Made by a program: the position numbers and the translations under genes
In this document: positions 354 through 32,079 of the stretch, in pieces
Numbering within the stretch: the first letter of the stretch is position 1
Layout: the number at the start of each line of letters is the position of its first letter
Origin: a virus
Direction: 5' to 3' (one strand)
Virus record (IMG/VR): IMGVR_UViG_3300010413_000151
Coordinates: 1-32,079 of that record
Length of the DNA: 32,079 nucleotides
Notes under the pieces: model-generated
Databases searched by the model: none
What the model was told of the DNA's origin: nothing
Seen by the model: the letters and a program-made list of their open reading frames with translations, nothing else

Positions 354-1208
354 TTAGGCAAACGTGAAAATGTATTTCCAATCTGTGTATTTCGCACTGA
401 TCAAGTGTGCATTTTCCAAACCGGGCAAAAACGGCTGATTCTCTTTACATATCGGGCAACGTGTTGGATACCCAGATTCAACGCACCCAGTGCCACAAAT
501 AACGCAAGTGTGCCGTGCTTTCATCTCTTCTAGGCACTCCGGGCACAATCGGGTGTCTATGTCTATTTCGTCTTCGTCAAACAAGAATCCGCACTCTTCA
601 CACGTGTTAGCACAGTCTAGGCACAGACACTTATCATCAAGAATTGTACCATTGCCCGATGGTACTTGGCACTGGCACTCTTCACACTTTGGCATATTAT
701 CCCAACAGTCTTCACAGTATACATGTCCATTGTCTGTGTGATAGTTAAAATCATAGATCATTGCACAATTGCACTCATCGCACCTTGAATCACATGACCA
801 ATCTGGGTCACAGTCTAACCACACAAATTGTCTTGTGCCGTCTTCTTTGACCCAAACTCCCCAATTCCCATCATGATCATCCAGGTGTGAAATTGCACCC
901 GCGCTATACCATTCGTTTTCAATCCAGGACATAAAATCAAAATAATCGTCTTCGTCTTCTTCGTCAAACCAACCAACCTGATCAACTTTATAGGTTAAAA
1001 TGCAGTTCTCTGTGTAGTCTAATACTGGCAACGCAAGGTCACAACTTGCCAAATATTCTTGCTGTTGCACTTCTGCATAGTCTACGTCTCCGGTTTTTAT
1101 CACAAAACCTGGATATACTTCGTAGACACTTCCAAACGAACCTGAGTCAAGGTATTTAGCGTCACTCATATCAATATCACAGATTCTAGGATTCTTTGGG
1201 TCAAACAT
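354..1208 (-). CDS. Kinase-like domain fused to cysteine-rich zinc-binding tail
   Basis: A 284-residue protein and the only convincing - strand gene. Residues 20-40 read as a glycine-rich loop (G23-S-F-G26-S-V) followed by a V-I-K38 strand. Residues 108-115 are H-L-D-D-H-D-G-N, matching the HxDxHxGN catalytic loop of aminoglycoside-phosphotransferase and ABC1-type kinases. D132 or D134 could be the metal-binding Asp. From C139 to near the end there are about ten CxxC or CxC pairs, suggesting several zinc ribbons or a LIM-like treble-clef array. The kinase part, about 138 residues, is much smaller than usual. I chose the ATG at 1208 because AGAAAGGAAA lies 9 nt upstream; the in-frame ATG at 1253 has no ribosome site and would add 15 residues. 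Substrate unknown. Base composition is more AT-rich than the + strand genes. Confidence 0.75.
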   Translation of the reverse strand: MFDPKNPRICDIDMSDAKYLDSGSFGSVYEVYPGFVIKTGDVDYAEVQQQEYLASCDLALPVLDYTENCILTYKVDQVGWFDEEDEDDYFDFMSWIENEWYSAGAISHLDDHDGNWGVWVKEDGTRQFVWLDCDPDWSCDSRCDECNCAMIYDFNYHTDNGHVYCEDCWDNMPKCEECQCQVPSGNGTILDDKCLCLDCANTCEECGFLFDEDEIDIDTRLCPECLEEMKARHTCVICGTGCVESGYPTRCPICKENQPFLPGLENAHLISAKYTDWKYIFTFA

Positions 1209-1225
1209 TTTGCACTTTCCTTTCT

Positions 1226-1325
1226 GGGTGCAATTGCACCCAAACGATTGCATTAAAATTATGTCCTAACAATAAGCACACACACCCGGTGTCTGTGCTT
1301 ATTGTTAGGTCACAAGATTGTGACC
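1226..1325. promoter_or_regulatory. Cluster of three perfect palindromes upstream of the kinase-like gene
   Basis: Reading leftward into the - strand gene, there is a GGTCACAA/TTGTGACC palindrome (1308-1325), then a perfect 16-bp stem (1265-1280 with 1294-1309, 13-nt loop), then the 16-bp palindrome GGGTGCAATTGCACCC (1226-1241), which abuts the likely ribosome site. Such a stack in a 5' region could be operators for a dimeric repressor or a structured leader. The first two arms overlap by two bases. No promoter hexamers are obvious on the - strand. Confidence 0.55.
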
Positions 1326-1740
1326 TAGCATTCTACTATAACGCACTGAGTGCCGTATACACCATATTGCACACTTGATCAATATGGCACTGCCAATTGA
1401 CCATACCAGACACTTGAAGCATTGCCATAACTGGCAGACTCACAATTCCGAAAAAACATAGCGACATTTTCATTTTATAATCCTTTCTTGACTATGATTT
1501 TATTGCCTATTGCACCCACAAAACCCGCGCGCGGTTTTGTGCACCAACGGCGTAAACTCACAATATATTTGAGATGATTCTCATTTATCGTTCGCACTCA
1601 AAACAAGGGTGTCATTACTCAATAGTGATTGTGTGCAATACCATTCTAGCGTGCTATAACGCGCGCTGGTTTTGTGTGTGCTAAGGAAATAAAATCTGTG
1701 CACTTTAGGATAAGTGCTAACCTTTTATCACTCTGGGCAA

Positions 1741-1804
1741 TAGTGTAAGTGTTTATAGCACAATCGCACTGTGCTATACAGTGCCTCAAACGGCACTTAC
1801 ACTA
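1741..1804. other. Nested inverted repeats with alternative folds
   Basis: An outer perfect 11-bp stem (1741-1751 with 1794-1804) encloses a perfect 9-bp stem (1754-1762 with 1770-1778, 7-nt loop). A third stem, 1780-1785 with 1792-1797, shares bases 1794-1797 with the outer arm, so the two folds are mutually exclusive. This could be a cruciform or a switching RNA. No neighbouring + strand gene follows it within the window. Confidence 0.5.
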
Positions 1805-2077
1805 AAGAGTGCAATCACAATTTGTGATTATGAGGGTTTTGTTTCGTGGTGCGCACTGAGGGTGCACTAAAGAGGTGTAGCACTGAGGGTGCACAGACAC
1901 AGAAAGAGTCAACGCGATATAATCTGTGGGTGCGACCATCGCAGGAATTAGACTCACGCACTGGCTAACTACCATAATGAGGCAAACGGCACTGAAAAGT
2001 GCCTCAATAACCCTGAAAGTTCTAACTATTGAGTTTACGCACCCGGTCAATTAAGCACGCCGATACCCATTCGGGAA

Positions 2078-2111
2078 GTGATAGACACAATTGACTATCA
2101 CCTGTTTTTTT
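2078..2111 (+). terminator. Orphan intrinsic terminator-like hairpin
   Basis: GTGATAG (2078-2084) pairs with CTATCAC (2095-2101), followed by CTG and seven T residues (2105-2111). This has the form of a rho-independent terminator on the + strand. No + strand gene is recognisable upstream, so it may end an untranslated RNA, block read-through from beyond the window, or be chance in a T-rich tract. Confidence 0.4.
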
Positions 2112-2710
2112 CCTCTGTGCACTCGTGCTAGTTGTATTACGTCACTTTGTGGACGTCCTACCCATTTTCGCACCCAATTTTCCGATTGGATTGTGCTACC
2201 CGTAGGCTATTCGATTGTGTGTGTCCGTGCTTGCGTGTTACGTGCACACGATATCACACCCGAAAACAAAACCCAAGTGTCAAACGTCACTATTTGGGCA
2301 CTGATTCAACCTTAAAATAAACACCCGATTTACGCCTAAATTTGTCATAGAACAGATGTTTGTCATTATTCTACACATAAAACGTTTCGAATCTGACTAT
2401 TAAATACATAGGTTCGGACTGGAAATTCTACATACGATATCGCGCCAAACGAAATTATTATGGCAACTAAAATCTACATATGTAGAATTATTGACCCATT
2501 TTCCACATATAAATTGGTCTAAAATCGCACTAGAAAACAGGTACATAATATATGTAACTAGACAGTTTATAACTAAATACCGTGTAAACTAGACCAATTG
2601 TGTCTAATCTAAATCTATAAATATATAGTCTAGTCTGTGCAATACAATGCCTATTCTACACTTAAAATATGAGTATACATAGGTTAAAGTGTGCACTAGA
2701 CACCCAAAAC

Positions 2711-2812
2711 ACACCCGAAATAGCCACAAAACACACCCAAAACAGCACTAGAATCGCACTAGAAAACAACACACCCAAAACAGCACACCCGAAATAGCCA
2801 CAAAACACACCC
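2711..2812. repeat. Perfect 28-bp direct repeat in A/C-rich tract
   Basis: A 28-base sequence starting ACACCCGAAATAGCC occurs identically at 2711-2738 and 2785-2812. Between and around the copies are shorter repeats such as ACACCCAAAACAGCA and GCACTAGAA. The + strand from about 2700 to 3060 is almost guanine-free. The word TTGACCACAGACA/C recurs near 2856, 2895 and 3042. No gene is supported. Confidence 0.75.
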
Positions 2813-3100
2813 TCAAACACATCACAATTGATTCTAATGGTATTGAGTGCACAGATTGACCACAGACACCATAGATCAAAACACACGTGTTAGAATTGAC
2901 CACAGACAGATTAGAATGCAAACACACACACACCCAGAGGCACACACCCAAACACGCGCCTAAACGCACTACAATCAATTCTAAGGTCACAAAACCGAAA
3001 TAGACACCCGGTATACTATAATTGCCATTGCACCCGCTAGAATTGACCACAGACCCATTAGAGATGATATTTATAGCACACCCGAAATATACCGGGCACA

Positions 3101-3231
3101 CCGGGCACTCTGGGCGATTGGCACAGACACAGACACCGGGCACACCGGGCACTCTGGGCGATTGGCACAGACACCGGGCACTCTGGGCGATTGGCACAGA
3201 CACCGGGCACTCTGGGCAATCGGCACACACA
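3101..3231. repeat. 29-bp tandem repeat array
   Basis: Three identical 29-base units lie at 3101-3129, 3145-3173 and 3174-3202, with a degenerate fourth at 3203-3231; the last three are directly adjacent. Each begins CCGGGCACTCTGGGC and ends CACAGACA. The core GGGCACTCTGGG is the reverse complement of the main word of the 1-250 array, and the period is the same. These are not CRISPR repeats because no unique spacers separate them. They resemble iterons or a satellite. Confidence 0.85.
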
Positions 3232-4043
3232 CACCGGGCACACACCCATAATAGACAATGGGTATACTGGGCACTGAGGCACACCCACAGACACCGGGCA
3301 CTGAGTGCACACCGGGCACACACCACACACGATAGAATGTAGGCACACCCAGAGTCAACCCAAGTGCACACCCATAATAGACACCGGGCACAATCGACAG
3401 GTTAACAAGTGCATAGGATGCATCCAGTTATAATGCATATCAAATAATAGAACGTGTGTTCTATATCGCCGCTACTTGTAGGCAATAGCGCGCGCTATAG
3501 GTTTGCGTAGGTTTTGCCCCATATACGCATAGGGTTGGGTGTGTTTCGGGTGTGTGCACTCTGGGTGTCTGTGCACTCTGGGTGTGTTTCGGGTGTGTTG
3601 CCTCTGGGCACTTTTTACCCACAGAGTGACGATGTATAATACATATTATACTTCACAACAAAAAGGATTAAATTGATCTAGTATATAATTACATAGGGTT
3701 AACCCACAACTATACTCAGATTATTATTGAGTATATCACTCTGGGTGTGCACTCTGGGCACACACACAGAAAGGATATACTGAGACAATAACCCAACAAG
3801 TTTACATAATGCCGGGGGGTGTCTGTTTTTGCGCGCGCGCAAGCGTGAGTCAGGCACTCCCTACCCGCGCATCTAAGACTAAAATTTTACGAACGGTATG
3901 TACTAATGTCCAGAGTGAGATCAAGCAAGAAAGTTCCCGGCGCTCACGGCCAGCGCGACGGCGGCAAAAATCTTTAGCGCAATGCGCGGACGCGCGACCC
4001 CTCACTACAGATAGTGTGACAGAAGGTGTGACTGTGGCCGATG
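3232..4043. other. Gene-free region with scattered repeat words
   Basis: A 16-base word CACACCCATAATAGAC is repeated at 3241-3256 and 3367-3382. The palindrome GTATAAT-ACAT-ATTATAC lies at 3634-3651. G/T-rich words GCACTCTGGG at 3556, 3573 and 3749 are the reverse complement of words common in the first kilobases, so the strand bias reverses around 3.1-3.5 kb. The 89-residue frame starting at 3809 lacks a ribosome site and looks non-coding. Confidence 0.55.
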
Positions 4044-4128
4044 TCACACCCAAAATGTACCAATACTTACCAGTTTAACCCCCACTGTCACACCCCGATC
4101 ACACCCAATCACACCCCCTATCACACCC
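4044..4128. repeat. TCACACCC iteron-like array
   Basis: TCACACCC occurs at 4044, 4088, 4099, 4109 and 4121. The last four copies are 11, 10 and 12 bp apart, close to one helical turn. The inverse word TGTGAC lies at 4015 and 4027. Phased short repeats of this sort are typical of sites where a protein binds cooperatively, such as replication origins or operators. Confidence 0.65.
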
Positions 4129-4181
4129 AAATCCCCCCATTTTGGATGGTAAAATTACCCCCCAAAAACCCCGCCTAGAAC

Positions 4182-4248
4182 TATGCGCACAAATATGCGC
4201 ATAACGCTATGCGCATAGTATGCGCACATATGCGCACGTCTATGCGCC
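4182..4248. repeat. TATGCGCA iteron-like array
   Basis: TATGCGCA starts at 4182, 4194, 4208, 4219 and 4229, with a sixth copy TATGCGCC at 4241. Spacings are 12, 14, 11, 10 and 12 bp. The core TGCGCA is self-complementary. It lies between the TCACACCC array and the 11-bp array in front of the first rightward promoter, which fits an origin or early control region. Confidence 0.7.
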
Positions 4249-4537
4249 TATTGACGTTTGTTCAAACTGGCGCTACTGGTTACAGGCCCAAGCCGCGAAA
4301 CCCACTAAAAGAAGCCCGAAATTTGATATCCCCCTATTTCACATTTTGAGAAAATCCGCAATCCCCCAATTACGGGTTTTCGGGTTTCTCACTCCCCATT
4401 TCCCGCCCTGCGAACCGAACGCGCCTATTTGCGACGAGAAAAGGGTTTTTTCCCGCTTATCTGGGTCGATCTCCGCCAATTGGGGCAAAATGTGCGAAAG
4501 TCCGGGTTATCTCAGAGCTATTCGGCCCGGAAACACG
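4249..4537. other. Spacer between repeat arrays, no gene supported
   Basis: A 121-residue open frame crosses this stretch from 4220, but it starts inside the TATGCGCA array, ends inside the ATATCCCAA array, has no ribosome site and resembles no family I know. I treat the stretch as untranslated control DNA. Confidence 0.4.
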
Positions 4538-4581
4538 ATATCCCAAGAATATCCCAAATATATCCCAAGAATATCCCAAAA
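4538..4581. repeat. Exact 11-bp tandem repeat upstream of the first promoter
   Basis: ATATCCCAA begins at 4538, 4549, 4560 and 4571, exactly 11 bp apart, with two variable bases closing each unit (GA, AT, GA, AA). It ends 12 bp before the -35 box at 4593. The helical phasing and position suggest binding sites for an activator or repressor of the rightward early genes. Confidence 0.75.
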
Positions 4582-4592
4582 CTAAAACCCCC

Positions 4593-4621
4593 TTGACAAT
4601 CGCCCTGTGGTGTGATAAGAT
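4593..4621 (+). promoter_or_regulatory. Promoter, leaderless start (first rightward operon)
   Basis: TTGACA (4593-4598), 17 bp, TAAGAT (4616-4621), with TG one base before the -10 (extended -10). Six bases separate the -10 box from ATG at 4628, so transcription should begin at or next to the start codon, giving a leaderless message. The four 11-bp repeats lie just upstream. Confidence 0.8.
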
Positions 4622-4627
4622 GTGACA

Positions 4628-5107
4628 ATGAAAGTAACACTGAACCACACCGAAACGTTGTTAGCCGCTCACGTAGCGAGACAAAGACACCGCGCCAACC
4701 GTGGTGCCGGGGTGCGCGACAGACAAATGGGCCTGGACGATAAACAGTTTATCGACCTGAATGGCGTTGGCGGAGAGTTGGCCGCTTGCAAGGCTCTGGG
4801 TGTCTATCCCGATTTAGAGATTGGTCCGCGCTCAGGGGGTTTTGACCTGATCACTCGTAGGGGCTACAAAGCCGATGTTAAAACGACAACCCGCCGTGAC
4901 GGTCGGCTACTTGCCTTTCTTGACAAGAAACCCGAAGATAGCGACATCTACATATTGGTGGTTGGCGAAATGCCTGAGTATGAGATAGTCGGTTGGTGTT
5001 GGGCGAAAGAGTTATTGAAGCCCGAAAACGTCATCAACCTTGGGCACGGTGACACCTACGGTTTGGGTCAAGATCATTTGAGGGTGTTCCCGGAAAAAAG
5101 TGTATAA
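4628..5107 (+). CDS. PD-(D/E)XK nuclease-like protein
   Basis: 159 residues. E50 (G-G-E-L), D73 (G-G-F-D-L) and D83-V-K85 fit the E...D...(D/E)xK pattern of the PD-(D/E)XK nuclease superfamily, the fold of many restriction enzymes, phage resolvases and recombination exonucleases. The motif order and the K-T-T tail after DVK match; the exact subfamily is not clear. It could be a structure-specific or host-DNA-degrading nuclease. Start: ATG 4628, 6 nt from the -10 box; the GTG at 4622 lies between the -10 box and the expected transcript start and is less likely. First gene of the rightward operon. Its TAA stop is embedded in a palindromic element. Confidence 0.65.
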   Translation: MKVTLNHTETLLAAHVARQRHRANRGAGVRDRQMGLDDKQFIDLNGVGGELAACKALGVYPDLEIGPRSGGFDLITRRGYKADVKTTTRRDGRLLAFLDKKPEDSDIYILVVGEMPEYEIVGWCWAKELLKPENVINLGHGDTYGLGQDHLRVFPEKSV

Positions 5108-7207: not shown

Positions 7208-7236
7208 TTGACAACCGTTGTCGGGTGTGATAAAAT
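7208..7236 (+). promoter_or_regulatory. Promoter, very short leader
   Basis: TTGACA (7208-7213), 17 bp, TAAAAT (7231-7236), with TGA before the -10 box. The expected start near 7243 leaves about 11 nt before ATG 7254, just enough for the ribosome site GGGGTGA. This is an internal promoter of the rightward operon. Confidence 0.75.
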
Positions 7237-7253
7237 GTGATGGGGGTGACGAT

Positions 7254-8973: not shown

Positions 8974-9489
8974 ATGCCAAGGTTACACCAAAATCAAGCA
9001 TCGCACTATAATTACAAATGCGGCTTAGGACCATTTGACGTGTGTGTTACCTGCTATTACAAATATTACCGTGGTAGGCCGGTTCAGAAGTCGCCAGATT
9101 ATAATGACGGCGAATATACGTGCGCGGAATGCGGTAGGGTGCTGTCAGATGACGATGATCTGATAATTGCAAGGCGGCGGAGATCGTTAGGTTCGGGTTG
9201 GCCGTTCGCGCTTAAGTTCTGGGCTGTGTATGTTCTGCTTGGCGCTGTGGCGTTTGTGGTTGGCTATCTCGTGACACACAAAACCGAAAATTTGAATGTC
9301 GGGTTTCTGGCTGGAAGCGGTGTGTATCTGGCCGGGGTGCTTGTTCTGTTTGTCGTGATTGTTAGGTGGGTTGTTGATGAAGTCAGGTCTGCAAAAAAGC
9401 CAGTGCCCGATTTTGTCAGCATAGAAACCCCGGAATTGGCAGAACCGCCAGACCCGCCGTTAGCCGTGGGAGATGTAAAGGGGAACTGA
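8974..9489 (+). CDS. Zinc-ribbon membrane protein (171 aa)
   Basis: ATG 8974 after GGTGA. The N-terminus has C16, C24-V-T-C27 and a later C-A-E-C pair (about 49-52), a zinc-ribbon pattern. A basic R-R-R-R cluster and two transmembrane helices (roughly 76-98 and 108-132) follow, then a proline-rich acidic tail. A cytoplasmic zinc domain anchored in the membrane is plausible. No family recognised. Its TGA overlaps the next ATG by one base. Confidence 0.65.
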   Translation: MPRLHQNQASHYNYKCGLGPFDVCVTCYYKYYRGRPVQKSPDYNDGEYTCAECGRVLSDDDDLIIARRRRSLGSGWPFALKFWAVYVLLGAVAFVVGYLVTHKTENLNVGFLAGSGVYLAGVLVLFVVIVRWVVDEVRSAKKPVPDFVSIETPELAEPPDPPLAVGDVKGN

Positions 9490-16629: not shown

Positions 16630-17059
16630 TATAGCGGTTCTGCAAACAGAAACCGGCGCGGTTATAGCAACATATACGGTAGACTACACTTACGTTGCCC
16701 CGCTACAGTTAGAAGACCTTACTTACAGGCGCATTGTGCCCGCTGGCACGGTACTTGCCTATAATCCCACTACCGGCAAAGTTGTTCCCAACTATACAAC
16801 CTATGGATTTGGAGTGATCGGTGTTAGCAGGCACGATGTTGATTTAGATGAAGTTGGCGCTAACACGGAAGGTGATCGCCTGGTAAGTTGCATTCTTCGT
16901 GGTGTCGTGTATGAGGATAACGCTTGGGATAATGGCACCCACGGCACCGTGCTTCAGGCTACAAAAGACGCGTTGGGTAAGCGTGTTGATTTTGTCAAAA
17001 CAACAAGCAATCACCCGCTCAGCGTTGAGGGGGATTGGCCCGATTGGACCGTTTACTAA
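16565..17059 (+). CDS. Putative head-decoration-type structural protein (164 aa)
   Basis: The centre (I-V-P-A-G-T-V-L-A-Y-N-P-T-T-G-K-V, later G-V-I-G-V-S and L-R-G-V-V-Y-E-D) has the short-strand pattern of lambda-D-like decoration proteins: a P-A-G-T-V-L turn, then a residue stretch with D-x-D and R-G. GTG 16565 is preceded by CGGAGA and overlaps the TerS-like gene by 65 nt. If right, it would sit on the capsid surface. The assignment is by pattern only. Confidence 0.45.
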   Translation: MQDKYIPGRFKKANLRLYPTRSIAVLQTETGAVIATYTVDYTYVAPLQLEDLTYRRIVPAGTVLAYNPTTGKVVPNYTTYGFGVIGVSRHDVDLDEVGANTEGDRLVSCILRGVVYEDNAWDNGTHGTVLQATKDALGKRVDFVKTTSNHPLSVEGDWPDWTVY

Positions 17060-17697
17060 GAGTTTTTATACACCCGCCTAAGGCGGGTGGTGTTTCCACA
17101 ACAGACGCATTAAAAGAGGCGTTGCCGGGTAGAGTTCAGATTTTCCCACGGTATTTTATTGACAGGGAAATTGGCGACGAAACAGATATAGCTATAGGTC
17201 ATTTATCATTTGGTTGTCACAAGACGATAAGGCGGGTTGAAAACCGTTTCAATGTTAGGTACTTGACTCAACTTCGTGACCCCGTTGACCGTGCGTGGTC
17301 ACATTGGAATTACTTAGTTCGTCAAGGCAGAATGGAATTTACCCTGATCGAACTACTGGGAAGTGACCGGGCTATAGCAGATAACCTTATGACGCGTCAA
17401 TTGTCTGGTATGGCACACTCTGAGCCTGTTTCTACTGACCTTAAAGTTACCGACGATGATCTAAGACAGGCTAAATACAACATAGCTCAGCATTTTGACT
17501 GGATTGGTGTACTAGACTATTACAGGGCAAGTATGGCCCGCCTGTCTTTGCTATTGGAAGTAGACTTGCCGGTGTATAGGCACAACACCTGGACACACAG
17601 GCACCCGCCGACTGAGGAAGAGAGGGCGGCGCTAGAGGCAAATAACCAGTTTGATATTGAATTATATAGATGGGTAAAGTCCGTATATTATCCCTAA
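17044..17697 (+). CDS. PAPS-dependent sulfotransferase, copy 1
   Basis: 217 residues. H10-P-P-K13-A-G-G-V-S18 matches the 5'-phosphosulfate loop (H-x-P-K-T-G-G-T-S) of carbohydrate sulfotransferases, and R78-D-P-V-D-R-A-W-S86-H-W is the 3'-phosphate-binding site with its Arg and Ser in the usual spacing. Such enzymes move sulfate from PAPS to a hydroxyl of a sugar or other acceptor. The length is compact but complete. TTG 17044 is chosen for its distance from GAGGGGGA; TTG 17035 lies too close. A second copy follows. Phage sulfotransferases are uncommon. Confidence 0.75.
   Translation: MDRLLRVFIHPPKAGGVSTTDALKEALPGRVQIFPRYFIDREIGDETDIAIGHLSFGCHKTIRRVENRFNVRYLTQLRDPVDRAWSHWNYLVRQGRMEFTLIELLGSDRAIADNLMTRQLSGMAHSEPVSTDLKVTDDDLRQAKYNIAQHFDWIGVLDYYRASMARLSLLLEVDLPVYRHNTWTHRHPPTEEERAALEANNQFDIELYRWVKSVYYP
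17071..17089 (+). other. GC hairpin in the first codons of sulfotransferase 1
   Basis: CACCCGCC (17071-17078) pairs with GGCGGGTG (17082-17089) around a 3-nt loop. These bases encode the P-P-K-A-G-G loop, so part of the symmetry may be forced by the protein. About 30 nt from the start codon, it could reduce translation. Confidence 0.35.
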
Positions 17698-17710
17698 AGT
17701 GGACGCACGT

Positions 17711-18412
17711 ATGAAAGATATCGTTTTATTCACCCACGTATACCGAACCGGGGGAATGGCGGCATACGAGTACCTAAAAGAAAAGATAGGAGACCGGGCG
17801 CAAAGGGCACATCTAGAGCAGATATTGCCAGCGCAGCAAGGCGCCTGGGGCGACACAGAAATAATAATAGGTCACTTTCCTTACGGCACACATAACTTTA
17901 TTCCGTGGCGGACACCAAAATACGTCGCGTTTGTTCGTGAGCCTGCCGATAGGATTTTAAGTCATTGGTTTTCCGGTCAAGACCCGGAACGCACATTTGA
18001 TAAGTTTGTGGAAGGCGCGCGTGATGGGAGATTGGCGACGATTGACAATATGATGACTCGTATACTGTCAAGCCCTAGCCCGGAGCTAATCAAGCGCGGG
18101 CACAATGCGTGCATAATTGACCGTGATATCACCTGGGAAGACTTAGCGCAAGCGAAAACCAATCTTGAAAAACGATATCTCTTTGTCGGGACTACTGAGT
18201 GGTGGTCAGATAGTATGCGTTGGCTGTGTGATTACTTTGATTGGCCTAGCCCTAGTCGTGGACGTTATAAGAAAGATAATTCGTCCAGGTTCAGGCCCAG
18301 AGGCCGGGAGTTACCCGGCGATGTGATGGAGGTAATATATCGGAGAGAAATTTTTGATGTCGAGCTATACCACTTTGCTAAAGAATTGGCTTCAGATTAT
18401 TTGTGGAGGTAG
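17711..18412 (+). CDS. Sulfotransferase-like protein, copy 2
   Basis: 233 residues. It shares the layout of the preceding gene: H9-V-Y-R12-T-G-G at the 5'-phosphosulfate position and R76-E-P-A-D-R-I-L-S84-H-W at the 3'-phosphate site, with the same Arg-to-Ser spacing. The usual Lys of P-K-T-G-G is Arg12 and the Pro is Tyr11, so PAPS binding may be altered or the acceptor different. Both proteins also share I-D-N-M-M-T-R or A-D-N-L-M-T-R. Likely a diverged duplicate. ATG 17711 with AAAGTGG upstream; GTG 17699 is an alternative. Confidence 0.7.
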   Translation: MKDIVLFTHVYRTGGMAAYEYLKEKIGDRAQRAHLEQILPAQQGAWGDTEIIIGHFPYGTHNFIPWRTPKYVAFVREPADRILSHWFSGQDPERTFDKFVEGARDGRLATIDNMMTRILSSPSPELIKRGHNACIIDRDITWEDLAQAKTNLEKRYLFVGTTEWWSDSMRWLCDYFDWPSPSRGRYKKDNSSRFRPRGRELPGDVMEVIYRREIFDVELYHFAKELASDYLWR

Positions 18413-25324: not shown

Positions 25325-26551
25325 ATGGACGATCTTAACATATCTGAAGATTACGGTTTTGTGATAAGGAACCTGATCAGGTCGGGCTTTGAAGGAAATT
25401 TCGCTGAGCATATCAAAGACACCTTGCGCGCTTGGGATAATCCCACTGATAGTCCTGCGGAAGTGATAGGATATTTAACACAAAAGGGCTATGAGTTCGG
25501 CACAAGCGGTCTATCTATGCACGCGAAAGCCGTTGATCTTATGGCGCATCTGATTGAGTATTATACCACTCTGCCTAGCTACAATATATTGGTGGTGTCA
25601 ACCGCGTCAATACTAACACCACCTGAGCGGTATGGCGGTATGGAAAGAATGGTAGATTACTTGTCACGCGGGCTAAGTTTTCTGGGGCATCACGTGCAAG
25701 TGGTCGCCAAGACGAAGTCAACAAATCCTTTCATAATTGCAACGGCGGGCGATGAAAAAGATTTTCCCGAAGTTGTTTCTGAAATAATTGACGAATTCGA
25801 TATAGTAATTGACCTTTCGCACGATAAGCGCATAGGGCAAACTTACCCAGAGAAACCACAGCTAAATGTGTACCAAGTTATGAGTGTTGGGCACAGGGTG
25901 AATCCTGTGTTTATTTCATATGGGCAAAAGCGGCACACTAGGCTAAATGGGCCTGTGGTGCATTATGGGTTGCGCCTGGAAGACTACCCCGTGAATTACC
26001 GTGTTCGGGATGATTACTTGCTGTATATGGGGTCTATCATACCAGAGAAGCGGGTAGAATGGGCAATTGATGTTGCGCTGAAAATGGGCAGGCCCATTAA
26101 GATAGCCGGTCCTCACTGGGAACCGGACTACTGGAAAAACGTAATAACACCATTGCTTAAAGCTGAGGGGGTGGATTATGTAGGCGACGTTGGCGGAGAG
26201 CGAAAGCTAGAACTGTTGCAAAACGCATTTGCCCTTATACATCCAGTTGGCGGATTTAATTGGGTAGAAGCGGGGGCGATAATCGCACAAGAAAGCAATG
26301 CTGTTGGTACTCCGGTTGTGGCAACAACAAACGGGTGTCTCCCGGAATATATTAGAGACGGAGAGAACGGCTATATGAGTGATACGCCCGATGGTATGGT
26401 TGAAGCTATGAAACCGATGGTAGAGGGACGCGGGCCAACTTGGTTTTCTTGTCGAAAAGCAACCGCGCCTAGAAATTGGTTTAAGATGTCTATTGACTAC
26501 CACAACTTAGCTACAGATGTTCTAAATGGACAAAGATGGACAGGAGGCTAG
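25325..26551 (+). CDS. Glycosyltransferase, GT-B fold, family 4 type
   Basis: 408 residues. R102-Y-G-G-M-E107 begins the N-terminal Rossmann domain, preceded by about 85 extra residues of unknown role. The C-terminal donor domain has L-Y-M-G-S-I-I-P-E-K-R near 235, E323-S-N-A-V-G-T-P-V-V and P-E341-Y-I-R-D-G-E-N-G-Y, the family 4 signatures for nucleotide-sugar binding. It would transfer a sugar from an NDP donor. ATG 25325 with AGGTGA. First of five glycosyltransferase genes. Confidence 0.8.
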   Translation: MDDLNISEDYGFVIRNLIRSGFEGNFAEHIKDTLRAWDNPTDSPAEVIGYLTQKGYEFGTSGLSMHAKAVDLMAHLIEYYTTLPSYNILVVSTASILTPPERYGGMERMVDYLSRGLSFLGHHVQVVAKTKSTNPFIIATAGDEKDFPEVVSEIIDEFDIVIDLSHDKRIGQTYPEKPQLNVYQVMSVGHRVNPVFISYGQKRHTRLNGPVVHYGLRLEDYPVNYRVRDDYLLYMGSIIPEKRVEWAIDVALKMGRPIKIAGPHWEPDYWKNVITPLLKAEGVDYVGDVGGERKLELLQNAFALIHPVGGFNWVEAGAIIAQESNAVGTPVVATTNGCLPEYIRDGENGYMSDTPDGMVEAMKPMVEGRGPTWFSCRKATAPRNWFKMSIDYHNLATDVLNGQRWTGG

Positions 26552-26554
26552 TAA

Positions 26555-27058
26555 ATGAGTACCGATCAAGTATTGTATCTAATTTACAATTTCATTCTGA
26601 GCCTGTGGGCCGACACCGTTGTTAAGGTGATTGTGCTTCAGGTCTCGCTAAACTTCGTGGCGGCTATTGCCGCCGCCGTTGCAACCGGCGCGTTTAAGGT
26701 TGACAAGCTAATCGAAGTGTTTTATCGAAAGCTTTTCCCGCTGATTATGATATACGCTATTTCTCGTGTTGTATCAGAGGCGTTGTCTACCCTACAACCT
26801 GGGGATGTCGGCGGGGTTTTTGATACGCTGGTTACGTTTATCTTAGCTAATCTTCCACTGCTTTCACTGGCGGCAATTGAGTTGCTACTTATCAAAGACC
26901 TGCTTAATAGTCTGGCTCAAATTCCTGGGCTTCAGGGTATGACAGATGCGGTGCCTAGCAAGCTTGGGAATACCGTCTTTGATAGGGACACTCTACTTAC
27001 GGCCCAAGCCAACCGGCGCGCACCCGTTATAGAAAGGGTGCCGCCTAAGGGTTACTAA
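26555..27058 (+). CDS. Putative holin-like membrane protein (167 aa)
   Basis: ATG 26555 with AGGAGG. Three or four hydrophobic helices (about 20-46, 60-75, 85-112) with the pattern L-N-F-V-A-A-I-A-A-A-V-A-T-G-A-F-K-V-D-K-L, similar to phage holins that have a long first helix, a G-x-F-x-x-x-K-L turn and a second helix. The polar C-terminal tail is about 50 residues. No endolysin lies beside it in the window, so lysis function is not supported by context. The TAA stop is in the sixth palindrome. Confidence 0.45.
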   Translation: MSTDQVLYLIYNFILSLWADTVVKVIVLQVSLNFVAAIAAAVATGAFKVDKLIEVFYRKLFPLIMIYAISRVVSEALSTLQPGDVGGVFDTLVTFILANLPLLSLAAIELLLIKDLLNSLAQIPGLQGMTDAVPSKLGNTVFDRDTLLTAQANRRAPVIERVPPKGY

Positions 27059-27065
27059 CCGTTAG
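27055..27065. repeat. Stop-codon palindrome, copy 6
   Basis: CTAACCGTTAG, an 11-bp odd palindrome with shorter arms than copies 3 and 5. TAA at 27056-27058 ends the holin-like gene. The ATG of the next gene begins at 27066, directly after the right arm. GTTAG-ATG also occurs at 5724 and 6120 without a full left arm. Confidence 0.65.
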
Positions 27066-27317
27066 ATGGTAGATGTATGGGGGGCGCAGGCAGTAGTAGC
27101 CAATAACACAGAGCCATTCACGCAAGCTGAATTCCTTGACGAAATTCAAAACATATTAGACGATGCTAGATCGGGAATGTCAGAAACGTTGGTTACTACT
27201 GCCTGTATGATTACCGTCTTAAGGTACGCGAACGGCATTGGTGTAAATATTGACGAAGAAGTTAGCAACGCAATTCGTAGTGCGGTAACGAATGAATGGA
27301 AGAAAAGAACAAGATAG
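27066..27317 (+). CDS. Hypothetical protein (83 aa)
   Basis: ATG 27066 abuts the palindrome; no separate ribosome site. Mostly helical and acidic (T-Q-A-E-F-L-D-E-I-Q-N-I-L-D-D-A). No family recognised. It overlaps the next gene by 22 nt. Confidence 0.6.
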   Translation: MVDVWGAQAVVANNTEPFTQAEFLDEIQNILDDARSGMSETLVTTACMITVLRYANGIGVNIDEEVSNAIRSAVTNEWKKRTR

Positions 27318-28024
27318 CGTTGATAGTGCCGTCATATAATGATTGGCATTTCTTAGCCAGATTTACCGATTCGTTGTTTCAATCAATAACTGGCGTGCCA
27401 TTTCAGATAATAATAGTTGATGATCATTCCACAGACGGCACCGTTGCGTGGGTTACTAGCAACCTTGAAAATTACGTAACGTATATAAGGCCAGAAAGCA
27501 AGTCGTATTTTACCAGGGCTGTGAATCACGGTATTTCCTACGCGCTTCAAAATACAGAAAGTGATTATTTTCTTATCGTTAATAGCGATATTACATTTAC
27601 AGATTATTGGGGCGCTGGTATGGTTGGCACGTCTATACAGAAAGAGGCCGGTATAGTTGGCGCTACCCTATTAAACCCAAACGGCACATTACAACACGTT
27701 GGCGCATTTGGCCGGGGTAGGCATATCGACATAAACAAAATACAGACCCGGTTTTTTGATGGGTACGAACCGGCGTGGGTCACTGGCGCGGCAATGATGG
27801 TTAAGCGTGAAGTATTTCTAGAAATAGGCCTGTTTCCCGTTCTGGTTGGTGAGCCGGTGCAATACGACGCATCGGATAGAGAATTCTGCAAAAATGCTAC
27901 ACTGGCCGGAATCAATATAGCAGTTAGCCCCGTAGTTTTATATCATCACACATTGCAAGCTGAGAGCTACCGGCGTGCTATGGGCCAATACAGTAGTTTT
28001 GCAATGTCTCGCGCGGACAGGTGA
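27296..28024 (+). CDS. Glycosyltransferase family 2 (GT-A)
   Basis: 242 residues. I-V-P-S-Y-N at the start, I-V-D42-D43-H-S-T-D-G-T for nucleotide binding and V-N96-S-D98 at the DxD-like metal site are GT2 signatures. V-T-G-A-A-M-M-V-K-R-E-V-F follows as in rhamnosyl- and related transferases. It uses an NDP-sugar and a metal ion. The donor is unknown. Second glycosyltransferase gene, overlapping the previous gene. Confidence 0.8.
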   Translation: MEEKNKIALIVPSYNDWHFLARFTDSLFQSITGVPFQIIIVDDHSTDGTVAWVTSNLENYVTYIRPESKSYFTRAVNHGISYALQNTESDYFLIVNSDITFTDYWGAGMVGTSIQKEAGIVGATLLNPNGTLQHVGAFGRGRHIDINKIQTRFFDGYEPAWVTGAAMMVKREVFLEIGLFPVLVGEPVQYDASDREFCKNATLAGINIAVSPVVLYHHTLQAESYRRAMGQYSSFAMSRADR

Positions 28025-28026
28025 AA

Positions 28027-29064
28027 ATGAGAGTTTCAATAGTAAGAGATCGTTGGCTTAACCCTTGGGACGTTGGTAACTATGCGGGCTTAACAGATAT
28101 GGTAGGTAGCTTGACGTTTTGGGGACGACAGACCGCTAACGGTGATATAGACTGGCAGGCGTTGCGCGAATTGTACCCCGGTGCCGAATTCAAAGCATAC
28201 AACAGAACGTATGAGGTTATAGAACACGAACCGGACATTATTGATGTGCCAGACGCTCACTATGAGTTCACACAAGACTTGGTTGGCCGTGGTATAAAGA
28301 CCGTGATTGCAACCTGGGATAACCTACCCGGCAAGAACACAATAAACACTAGCGCCAGAAAAGCACTTATTGAGGCAGATGGTTTTATAGCTAGAAGCAC
28401 TATGGCAAAACAGGCGCTTATGTTTGATGGTGTAGTGCCTGATAGGATTAGACGGATACCGGGCGCTGTTAACACAAATTTCTTCAAGCCGCTCAAAACC
28501 ACTGAGCGTGAAGATGCTGTTTTATTTGTGGGAAGATTGGTAAATGAAAAGGGAATACAGGTTTTGATGTGGGCGATATCCCAAGTCCCCGGTGTTGAGT
28601 TGTGGATTGTGGGCACAGGCCCGGAAGAAGAGGCATTAAAGAAATGGACCGATTACGCGGGTATACACGATAGAACAAGATGGTTAGGAACACTGTCGAG
28701 ACACGAATTAGCAGATGTATACAGACAAGCAAAGGTGCTTGCAGTTCCTAGTGTGCCAAAACTAGAAAGTCACCCATACTCGACTTGGTTAGAGCAATTC
28801 GGGCAAGTCATCATAGAGGGCTTAGCATCCGGGTTGCCCATTGCCGGGTCTTTGAGTGGTGCTATACCTGAGGTCGGCGGAGATGTTGCGGGACTTTATC
28901 ACATTCCGATGCAATGGCCGAAATTGGCGGAAGACATTAACACTATCATTTTCGGTAAGGGAGTATTCACTAGAATGTCACGTGCTGCGAGAAAAAGGGC
29001 GGTTACGTATTATGATAGTATTATTGTGGCCGAAAAAACCCTTTCCTGGTACAACGTACTATGA
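28027..29064 (+). CDS. Glycosyltransferase, GT-B fold, family 4 type
   Basis: 345 residues. V-L-F-V-G-R-L-V-N-E-K-G near 165 is the usual start of the donor domain; E-Q-F-G-Q-V-I-I-E-G-L-A-S-G-L-P-I near 255-271 and G-A-I-P-E-V follow. The N-terminal domain has D-V-P-D-A-H-Y-E-F and W-D-N-L-P-G. ATG 28027 with ACAGGTGA; GTG 28021 lies inside that site. Its 3' end overlaps the next ATG by 4 nt. Confidence 0.8.
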   Translation: MRVSIVRDRWLNPWDVGNYAGLTDMVGSLTFWGRQTANGDIDWQALRELYPGAEFKAYNRTYEVIEHEPDIIDVPDAHYEFTQDLVGRGIKTVIATWDNLPGKNTINTSARKALIEADGFIARSTMAKQALMFDGVVPDRIRRIPGAVNTNFFKPLKTTEREDAVLFVGRLVNEKGIQVLMWAISQVPGVELWIVGTGPEEEALKKWTDYAGIHDRTRWLGTLSRHELADVYRQAKVLAVPSVPKLESHPYSTWLEQFGQVIIEGLASGLPIAGSLSGAIPEVGGDVAGLYHIPMQWPKLAEDINTIIFGKGVFTRMSRAARKRAVTYYDSIIVAEKTLSWYNVL

Positions 29065-29768
29065 CGAAAATTGCTGTTAGTATGATTATGCAAGACGAAG
29101 AAGAGTATATTGGCCGTGCGGTTAGCAGTGTGACATTTGCGGACTGTGTTTGTATTTATGATTTTGTCAGTCAAGATGACAGTGTGTGGATTGCCAAACA
29201 GAGCACGCCAAAGGGTGTGTTGTTATATTTAGACCAAGTCGAATGGCCCGACGATTTTTCGGCGGCACGCAATCTCTCGTTGGGCCTAGTGCCCACTGAT
29301 CGTGTTGATTGGTGGATGCGGTTAGATGCAGACGAAGAATATTCGCCCGATCTACGGGCTAATATTGTCGATATGTTAGAGAGCTTACCAGATGACATCA
29401 CGGCTGTGCGTATAAGGCAAACTAACTTGTGGCCCGATAAAGACCACTACGCCGCAAACCTGGGCGGGTTTGAGACGCACCCAAGAATCTTTAGGGTGCC
29501 GCGCGATGGAAGTTACCAATTGTGGTCCGGGCAGGTGCACGAATTCGTTAAGGTAATGGGCTTAAACGGTTTAGTACCTATACCACAGAGTCAAATAGCA
29601 ACTTGGGGTGCACAGGTTTTTCATTATGGGTGGCTAGAAAAGTCTAGGCGCGAACAACGAGAAGATTTATACGCTACTATGCCGGGGTCTGGGGTAAAAG
29701 GGCGCGGCGACTTGACAGATAGAAAATATGCGGTTAGAGAACTACCGCCAGGAGTCAGGGATAGATGA
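29061..29768 (+). CDS. Glycosyltransferase family 2, WaaE/KdtX-like
   Basis: 235 residues. M-I-M-Q-D-E-E-E-Y-I-G-R-A at the N-terminus, D-F-S-A-A-R-N and W-W-M-R-L-D89-A-D91-E-E match the GT2 group of lipopolysaccharide-core-like glucosyltransferases that begin with N-E-E and have D-F-S-x-x-R-N. The D-A-D is the metal site. The pair S-Q-D-D replaces the usual S-x-S-x-D-x-T near 37. It has an ATGA overlap on both sides. Confidence 0.75.
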   Translation: MTKIAVSMIMQDEEEYIGRAVSSVTFADCVCIYDFVSQDDSVWIAKQSTPKGVLLYLDQVEWPDDFSAARNLSLGLVPTDRVDWWMRLDADEEYSPDLRANIVDMLESLPDDITAVRIRQTNLWPDKDHYAANLGGFETHPRIFRVPRDGSYQLWSGQVHEFVKVMGLNGLVPIPQSQIATWGAQVFHYGWLEKSRREQREDLYATMPGSGVKGRGDLTDRKYAVRELPPGVRDR

Positions 29769-32079
29769 AAATTGCCTTTATCGCCGGTCACATTGGTTCA
29801 TCTGGGCTTAAACCATCTGGTCAATACGGGGGTGGGGAGTTACATACATTTGCTTTTCTAGACATTCTCAGAAAAAAATACGATGTAACGGCAATAGTCC
29901 CTAATCTTTTCTACCCCGCATTTGATAGCGCGGCAGAATACGGCTATGATTTAGAGGGCTTAGAATGGCGACCGATGGGCAAAAACCTAGATTGGCTCAG
30001 AACCTTTGACGTAATGATCGCCAAAGATCACGGAAGATTGTATCCGCCAATATGTCATAGAAACATTCTGTCCGTTTTCTTTCCCCAATACCCCGATTGG
30101 GGCGAGTCGATTGGTGGGTATGACACTGTATTGGCAAACTCGCAATATACCGCCAGTTGGGTCAAGCGTTATTGGAAACGTGATGCGGATGTGGTATATC
30201 CGCCAGTGCCAATAGATAACATCCTGTCTGTTGCCGGGTCTCCGTCGCCAAAGAAGTTTAATCGAATAGTAAACATTGGCCGGTTTTTTCGTGTTGCCGC
30301 TGGCAACAACAAGAACCACTTGGTTGTCATCAACGCTTTCAAGAAAATGATGCTTCCAGATTGGGAACTTGTCTTGATCGGTGCCAAGCAAGATGGTGTG
30401 TATTTTCAAGAAGTGCTTGATACAATCGGGGACGATAAACGCATCAAGATTTATCACGATCTACCACGTCAAGAGTACATAGATATGTTAGCCCAGAGCC
30501 GTTTTATCTGGGCGGCAACCGGCTATAGTGGCGGAGAAGATATCCCGCCTAGCTCACGTGAGCACTTCGGTATTTTCCCGGTTGAGGGCGCTGTGTTAGG
30601 CACAATACCGTTTGTGCATAATTCTGGCGGTTCACCCGAAGGGCCAACGTTAGTTTGGGATACCCCGGATGATTTGATCGAGAAGACAAGGGAACTTATA
30701 GAAGACCAGGAAAAGGCAAAGCGAACCGCTAATGATCTGAAGCAAAGGGCGAGACAGTTTGATATTGAGGTACAAGCGGCGCGCCTGATCGAGATTATAG
30801 AAAGACCTGTTGTGGTACTGCCAGAGGAAGGCAAGGGCAAGGTTTTTATATCAGCGCCAGCGCGCGAAAACATAACGGTTGGGATGGTTTCGGATAGCGC
30901 CGAAAGGACAACCGGCTTTGGTATGGTGACTAAAGGCGTTGGAACTAGATTGTCAGAGATGGGGTATAAGGTAAAGCTGTTGGGGCTTTCAGACCCGCAC
31001 AGAGGACCGCCCAATTATACAGACTTGCTATATACTTGGCGTGCTTGGCCCGGTGAGAATTACCACAATCTTGTCAAGTCTTTTGTTCAAGAAGAGAAAG
31101 TAGACGTGCTTTATGTGAATTATGACCCCGGCAATATACGCCTGGTTCTTGATGCGCTAATGGGTAGTAGTATAGACATCCCGGTTGTAAGCTATATGCC
31201 CATAGAAGCCGCGCCGGTGATACCCCAGATGATAGACACGCTTCGACTTGTGCGCTTGTTTAATGGCGAAACCATCTTATATACCAGATGGGCGGTAGAG
31301 CAGGTATTAAAGGCGGGTGGTCCAAGGTGCGCATTTGTTTATCACGGTGCCGATCACGCCGACTTTAGGCCACCAACCCCAGAAGAAGCCATTAAGGTTA
31401 GGCGCGCGGTTGGTTGGGAAGATAAATTTGTGATAGTGAGCGTTGGCCGAAACAAAAGGTCTAAAAACCATCAAATATTGCTTGACGCTATTAAGATTCT
31501 CGTTGATGCTGGTCACAATGATATAAGGGCGTATATACACAGCAACCCTCACGATTTTGTCCCCAACTCTTCGGTGCCGCTGTATGACACTGTAGAAGTT
31601 AGGGGGCTTCAGGGCATCGTTGAATTTCCCGCCGACTTGCACGATCAGACGCGCGGTGTTCAGTATGATGGTGATAGGTTCATCCAGGCACCGGACACAA
31701 ACGATGAAAATGAACTTAGGCGCATTATGATATCTGCGTTGAATTATATGGAACGGCTTTGGTTGGCTTTTCCAAATGGCGCGTATGTAAATACATCTAT
31801 GGCTGAGGGTTTCGGCTTGCCGCAAATTGAGGCTATGAGAGTCGGCTTGCCTGTCATTAGTATTGACGACCAGGGGCCACAGCGTGAGGTTATGGGCAAC
31901 GTGCCAATTTGGGTGCCCCATTCCTGGGAAGAGTATTGGAATACTGGCGCTATTCTCAGAAACGCCAACCCCGCTCACATAGCCCAAGCGATTATAGACC
32001 TTAAAGAAGGCAATCGGGGCTTAGATCGTTGGGAACTTTCAACAATGGGTATAGAATGGGCGCATCGCTATACCTGGGA
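29765..32079 (+). CDS. Bifunctional glycosyltransferase, two family 4 domains (partial)
   Basis: Open from ATG 29765 to the right edge, 771 codons without a stop. The first GT-B unit: Q20-Y-G-G-G-E25 loop, V-N-I-G-R-F-F near 168, and E-H-F-G-I-F-P-V-E-G-A-V-L-G-T near 265-280. A linker near 360 leads to a second unit: T-V-G-M-V-S-D-S near 370, V-S-V-G-R-N-K-R near 557 and S-M-A-E-G-F-G-L-P-Q-I-E-A-M near 680. Two active-looking domains suggest one enzyme making two linkages or a repeating disaccharide, or a duplication in which one domain is structural. The 3' end is outside the window. Confidence 0.8.
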   Translation, partial: MKIAFIAGHIGSSGLKPSGQYGGGELHTFAFLDILRKKYDVTAIVPNLFYPAFDSAAEYGYDLEGLEWRPMGKNLDWLRTFDVMIAKDHGRLYPPICHRNILSVFFPQYPDWGESIGGYDTVLANSQYTASWVKRYWKRDADVVYPPVPIDNILSVAGSPSPKKFNRIVNIGRFFRVAAGNNKNHLVVINAFKKMMLPDWELVLIGAKQDGVYFQEVLDTIGDDKRIKIYHDLPRQEYIDMLAQSRFIWAATGYSGGEDIPPSSREHFGIFPVEGAVLGTIPFVHNSGGSPEGPTLVWDTPDDLIEKTRELIEDQEKAKRTANDLKQRARQFDIEVQAARLIEIIERPVVVLPEEGKGKVFISAPARENITVGMVSDSAERTTGFGMVTKGVGTRLSEMGYKVKLLGLSDPHRGPPNYTDLLYTWRAWPGENYHNLVKSFVQEEKVDVLYVNYDPGNIRLVLDALMGSSIDIPVVSYMPIEAAPVIPQMIDTLRLVRLFNGETILYTRWAVEQVLKAGGPRCAFVYHGADHADFRPPTPEEAIKVRRAVGWEDKFVIVSVGRNKRSKNHQILLDAIKILVDAGHNDIRAYIHSNPHDFVPNSSVPLYDTVEVRGLQGIVEFPADLHDQTRGVQYDGDRFIQAPDTNDENELRRIMISALNYMERLWLAFPNGAYVNTSMAEGFGLPQIEAMRVGLPVISIDDQGPQREVMGNVPIWVPHSWEEYWNTGAILRNANPAHIAQAIIDLKEGNRGLDRWELSTMGIEWAHRYTW

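Follow-up and report, generated by a model that had tools for sequence, protein, structure and literature searches.

What is the function of three different short words, each repeated at close to one turn of the DNA helix, which lie together within 540 bp in front of the rightward genes of an uncultured phage? The DNA analysed here, hereafter the window, is a 32,079-base IMG/VR virus entry, classed as linear and probably a fragment. The first-pass annotation had described this locus as a replication origin or operator complex, which is about right, but the arrays have to be separated: array 1 is origin-like and array 3 is operator-like. The region is probably an origin combined with an early-promoter control region, that is, an ordinary kind of region in a new phage.

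The gene-free region and its three arrays

The layout of the window is as follows.

354-1253, minus strand: leftward gene, the only one in the window, with no family match
1254-4621, no strand: non-coding repeat-rich region that separates the leftward gene from the rightward block (from the ORF list, translations and sequence)
4087-4128, plus strand: array 1, four TCACACCC iterons at 4088, 4099, 4109 and 4121
4182-4248, no strand: array 2, five copies of TATGCGCA and TATGCGCC at 4241, with a palindromic core TGCGCA
4538-4579, plus strand: array 3, four copies of ATATCCCAA at steps of exactly 11 bp, putative operator or activator site
4593-4621, plus strand: promoter TTGACA-N17-TAAGAT, with TG before the -10 hexamer (extended -10)
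4628-5107, plus strand: first rightward gene, DUF5843 / phrog_18407 by family matches
10991, plus strand: DNA-polymerase-type exonuclease gene
12660, plus strand: dNMP kinase gene
16565, plus strand: head protein gene
21223, plus strand: large terminase gene
23057, plus strand: Mu-like portal gene

The ORF list and inspection of the sequence gave no convincing gene between 1254 and 4621 (about 3.4 kb), no ORF tested in this interval matched a family, and the arrays occupy the right-hand part of the gene-free stretch. The promoter and the change of gene direction announced for the vicinity of the arrays are both present, since the leftward gene ends the left side at 1253 and all clear genes from 4628 to the right end are rightward. 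In this rightward block the small early genes come first, and it also includes a run of glycosyltransferase-type genes.

The word positions claimed for the three arrays were recovered by exact matching: TCACACCC at 4044, 4088, 4099, 4109 and 4121, with one more match at 2254; TATGCGCA at 4182, 4194, 4208, 4219 and 4229; and ATATCCCAA at 4538, 4549, 4560 and 4571. The exception is the sixth TATGCGCA copy, at 4241, which is imperfect (TATGCGCC, a 7/8 match). The presentation of one protein face per turn, also claimed, holds for array 1 (steps of 11, 10 and 12 bp over its four copies) and for array 3 (11, 11 and 11), but is loose in array 2, whose steps of 12, 14, 11, 10 and 12 (mean 11.8) are poorly phased. 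The presence of three different words in 540 bp is far beyond chance as judged by shuffling. Three-copy chains of any 8-mer with a spacing of 9-14 bp were found in 0 of 2000 dinucleotide shuffles of positions 3900-4650, in 0 of 100 such shuffles of the whole window, and, for two stricter local regions, in 0 of 1000 shuffles each. Phage DNA not selected for arrays, about 1.0 Mb in all, contained 13 chains of at least four copies, mostly coding repeats, which corresponds to a background of 0.007 per 540 bp, against three here.

Several other features of this part of the window deserve mention. Long tandem repeats with a 59-bp unit (CCCAGAG...) fill positions 1-250, and the left contig end breaks within them; other long non-coding tandem repeats, with units of 29, 44 and 73 bp (ACACCGGGCACTCTGGGCGATTGGCACAG), lie at 3091-3242. 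Between 2255 and 3750, CACACCC words (plus strand, 2710-3367) are followed by GGGTGTG words (3537-3743), among which are two pairs exactly 11 bp apart, and this field extends the word family of array 1 over about 2 kb with one change of orientation. The N-terminal pattern of the leftward gene product is kinase-like (GSFGSVYEVYPGFVIK), and several CxxC pairs are present in this protein. That of the first rightward gene has an ADVKT motif reminiscent of PD-(D/E)XK nucleases; the relatives of this gene are distant only and stand in unrelated contexts, and they include genes of Methylophilales phage MEP301 and Mycobacterium phage Antsirabe, the latter named an HNH endonuclease and adjoining RecB- and RecT-like genes.

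Array 1 and a candidate replication origin

Array 1 is not limited to the four iterons listed above. Two inverted copies of its word, at 4014 and 4025, had escaped the first-pass annotation, and together with the copy at 4044 they constitute a second cluster, at a distance of 44 bp from the main one:

4014-4020, minus strand: inverted iteron word GTGTGAC
4025-4032, minus strand: inverted iteron word GGTGTGAC, which begins a 13-nt arm (4025-4037)
4043-4051, plus strand: iteron word GTCACACCC, exact match
4052-4086, no strand: spacer between the iteron clusters, putative unwinding element

With both orientations included, the steps of this word are 12, 18, 44, 11, 10 and 12. A 12/13 inverted repeat spans the spacer, pairing GGTGTGACTGTGG (4025-4037) with CCACTGTCACACC (4082-4094), and the AT content reaches 62% over 4040-4079, which is only modestly richer than the approximately 52% of the window. 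Array 1 thus consists of short words at 10-12 bp, in both orientations and in two groups, which is the arrangement of iteron clusters at phage and satellite origins with a primase-helicase as initiator.

We scanned 2.9 million viral contigs for stretches with three TCACACC words in phase and obtained 92 of these, many of which are in-frame protein repeats and were used as an internal control. Thirty-three non-coding records, picked to avoid duplicates, were compared with 17 coding-repeat records, coding and non-coding being assigned via ORF overlap and by eye. PF13148 (DUF3987) was found over the cut-off in 10 of the 33 non-coding records and PF05272 (VapE-like) in two; none of the 17 controls contained DUF3987, and one of them gave a weak VapE match, far from its array. 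The arrays of L034 and L052 adjoin a protein of 624-635 aa that matches a PHROG DNA primase family, and L037 has a similar protein, judged by eye. With this primase-like family included, replication genes stand beside the array in 14 of the 33 non-coding records and in none of the 17 controls (Fisher p 0.0009), a count in which the DUF3987 group enters related phages more than once and whose initiators form four groups at 50% identity; members of one initiator family are related. The same or a similar word occurs beside replication genes in other phages, though not at every array.

The distance from the non-coding arrays to these genes is 160-583 bp. The adjoining genes belong to four families, namely DUF3987 with Prim-Pol, two VapE-type helicases and the 624-635 aa primase-like protein, between which blastp detects no similarity. 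In the DUF3987 group (L058 excepted) and in L079 the array is upstream of the gene, and in L045, L058 and the L034 group it is downstream; such variability is easier to reconcile with an origin than with a single operator. In L103 the TCACACC array is inside a replication-initiation gene. A scan with one word selects for that word and does not give its frequency among origins, so that the recurrence of TCACACC is not in itself independent evidence. Other words accompany related primases: in RcDora, phased GGTGAG recurs every 9 bp beside the gene, on both strands, and V16 has the word ATCGGAC. The plan is thus common while the word drifts, often keeping GGTG.

Among the closest known counterparts is the origin of phage P4 (NC_001609, 9086-9809), whose initiator is the alpha primase-helicase. 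Its type 1 repeats, annotated at 9310, 9320, 9331, 9353 (inverted), 9396 and 9406, have the word GGTGAACA, to be compared with GGTGTGA in the window, and their steps of 10, 11, 24, 41 and 10 are close in kind to those of array 1. In both cases 8-bp words 10-11 bp apart occur in both orientations, with about 41-44 bp between the clusters. Furthermore, the P4 type 2 decamer (9176, 9186, 9196) is an exact 10-bp tandem, and the window likewise has a second word in exact tandem; both loci lie between leftward genes (in P4, the alpha side) and rightward genes. P4 differs in that its small genome also encodes the initiator and contains a second cis region, crr, whereas the window shows no initiator. 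The loci of L077, L058, L045 and L079 share with the window the TCACACC word, steps of 10-12 bp, a non-coding location and, in most of them, both orientations; in these the initiator gene is at most 0.6 kb away and the array is a presumptive origin, whereas the 32 kb of the window contain no such gene. The origins of SaPI Rep and SCCmec Cch2 also combine short iterons with an initiator helicase, as proposed here; Rep and Cch2 are reported to bind such iterons, Cch2 via its C-terminal domain (PMC7581432). Their iteron words are different, and these origins lie directly downstream of the helicase gene. The VirE and DUF3987 domains have been predicted to be replicative helicases of mobile elements (PMC5862659). 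In lambda-type origins the phased initiator iterons are inside the O-like gene, which recalls the array of L103; the array of the window, in contrast, is non-coding, and the window has no O-like gene.

On the strength of these likenesses, we lean towards reading positions 4014-4128 as the group of iterons to which the initiator binds at a replication origin of the P4 / VapE / DUF3987 kind. The phage initiator, for which a VapE-, DUF3987- or P4-alpha-like primase-helicase is most likely, would have its gene in the part of the genome outside the window and would bind the 7-8 bp words TCACACC / GGTGTGA via a C-terminal DNA-binding domain. Two helicase rings would assemble on the four same-face copies at one side of the spacer 4052-4086 and on the inverted copies at the other, and would open this spacer. 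Array 3 (4538-4579) would be a separate site, where a regulator bound head to tail every 11 bp would control the rightward promoter. Origin and early promoter would then be neighbours, with the leftward genes to one side and the rightward block to the other, as is the case in P4.

If this is right, the origin of an uncultured phage lineage has been placed from its sequence alone, and the missing part of the genome is predicted to encode a primase-helicase that binds GGTGTGA. A rule for candidate origins would follow, namely that they are marked in non-coding DNA by TCACACC or GGTG-core words that recur every 10-12 bp, are present in both orientations and leave a gap of roughly four turns. Such a rule would span phages with very different initiators, whose origins are rarely annotated, and the word and its spacing could guide the search for origins among uncultured phages.

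Arrays 2 and 3 and the alternative readings

Between the end of array 3 and the -35 hexamer there are 13 bp, so that the array stands at a promoter in front of a gene. Pairs of ATATCCCAA 11 bp apart were found in 12 viral contigs, and in about half of these cases a gene start follows within approximately 20-50 bp when the other strand (TTGGGATAT) is read; L007 fronts an O-like initiator gene, and in L012 the copies are beside an integrase. Because array 3 adjoins a good promoter and because the same word elsewhere mostly precedes gene starts, the simplest reading that fits is an operator or activator site. The ATG at 4628 is about 7 nt past the -10 hexamer and the corresponding mRNA may be leaderless; a Shine-Dalgarno-like word precedes only 16 of the 45 start codons examined. 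At 4593-4640 and 7223-7245, GGTGTGATAAGATGTGAC and GGTGTGATAAAATGTGAT recur as stretches that resemble promoters.

Could all three arrays be transcriptional operators for two or three phage regulators that act on the early promoter of the rightward genes, and perhaps on a leftward promoter too, with the origin elsewhere? We regard this as possible but unlikely. The proximity of array 3 to the promoter, the ATATCCCAA tandems before gene starts in unrelated phages, the presence of GGTGTGA at 4609, within the promoter spacer, and at 7223, within a comparable promoter-like stretch, and the fact that an 83-kb relative replicates without such arrays are all in keeping with it. However, array 1 lies 465 bp upstream of the promoter, its clusters have both orientations and are 44 bp apart, as at origins, and its word elsewhere adjoins primase-helicase genes, sometimes downstream of them. 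The TGTGATAA sequence at 4609 and 7223 also resembles an extended -10 element, and it is on account of this coincidence, and of the similar stretch at 7223, that GGTGTGA at 4609 was set aside as an iteron.

It is improbable that the region is filler of low complexity (CACACCC, CCCAGAG) that serves no specific function, in which array 1 would result from local repeat growth. Array 1 does lie within a field of similar words, CACACCC and related words being frequent and scattered over 2255-3367, and other tandem repeats occupy 1-250 and 3091-3242. On the other hand, the phasing at 10-12 bp is independent for three unrelated words, slippage would copy whole units whereas the TCACACC linkers vary in sequence and length, and local shuffles never reproduce the arrays.

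We consider it very improbable that array 1 (or 3) represents the arm-type sites of a tyrosine integrase in an attachment region, the integrase being off the left end: five TCACACC arrays (L031, L072, L073, L074, L096) adjoin integrase-like genes, several near a tRNA-like sequence, and are probably arm-type sites, L012 has its ATATCCCAA copies beside an integrase and the P4 attP arms are also 12-bp tandem repeats, but the window contains neither an integrase nor a tRNA, and these attachment-type cases have no or almost no opposite-orientation copies, whereas the window has both orientations and the four-turn gap.

Array 2 could be a cruciform or a dimer-binding array. As single-stranded DNA it folds far better than shuffled sequences (z -4.2) and has a strong hairpin potential, which is expected from its palindromic core; triples of TATGCGCA occur in seven viral contigs in no consistent context. 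A microRNA model match obtained on the TATGCGCA repeats in the RNA family search was weak and single and was rejected as repeat noise. A more ambitious reading would make the 540-bp region an assembly of iteron origin, palindromic hairpin array and 11-bp operator, bound by three proteins and coupling replication to early rightward transcription, several unrelated initiator families having converged on TCACACC; this we put forward only tentatively, as rather unlikely.

Initiator, relatives and GC skew

The favoured reading of array 1 as an origin calls for an initiator. As the first-pass annotation had remarked, none is recognised in the window, and our searches bore this out over the 32-kb fragment; the rest of the genome lies outside it. 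GC skew had been suggested as a check, and the cumulative minimum at 4700 does agree with an origin; it also coincides with the change of gene direction, with which it agrees equally well, and we rejected it as proof for that reason.

The absence of the arrays from relatives had been named as an observation that would count against the proposal, and it was made in part. Among the relatives sought by TerL and portal, only G003 (L005, 83 kb; TerL 55% identical) is long enough to be informative, and it has no phased arrays. This is weak evidence against an origin, since G003 does not share the genes around this region; furthermore, its replication module is different, with an O-like initiator and a DnaB-like helicase far from its terL. 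The close relative L006 covers the right side only, and no phased arrays were found in the contigs of the other relatives, which do not share the flanking genes and whose coverage of the region is not clear.

Some further features were noticed in the window and in its relatives. A glycosyltransferase cassette (25325-32077), 3' of the portal gene, is common to G003 and L006, and two sulfotransferase-like genes (17035-18412) lie 5' of the terminase gene of the window. Positions 2084-4004 of G003 encode a TGT-like / DUF6884 protein and a Vut_1 transporter, which suggests 7-deazaguanine chemistry. Finally, a 58%-identical terminase is found on L137, a contig binned in an Altiarchaeales archaeon MAG, which is probably a virus or a binning artefact.
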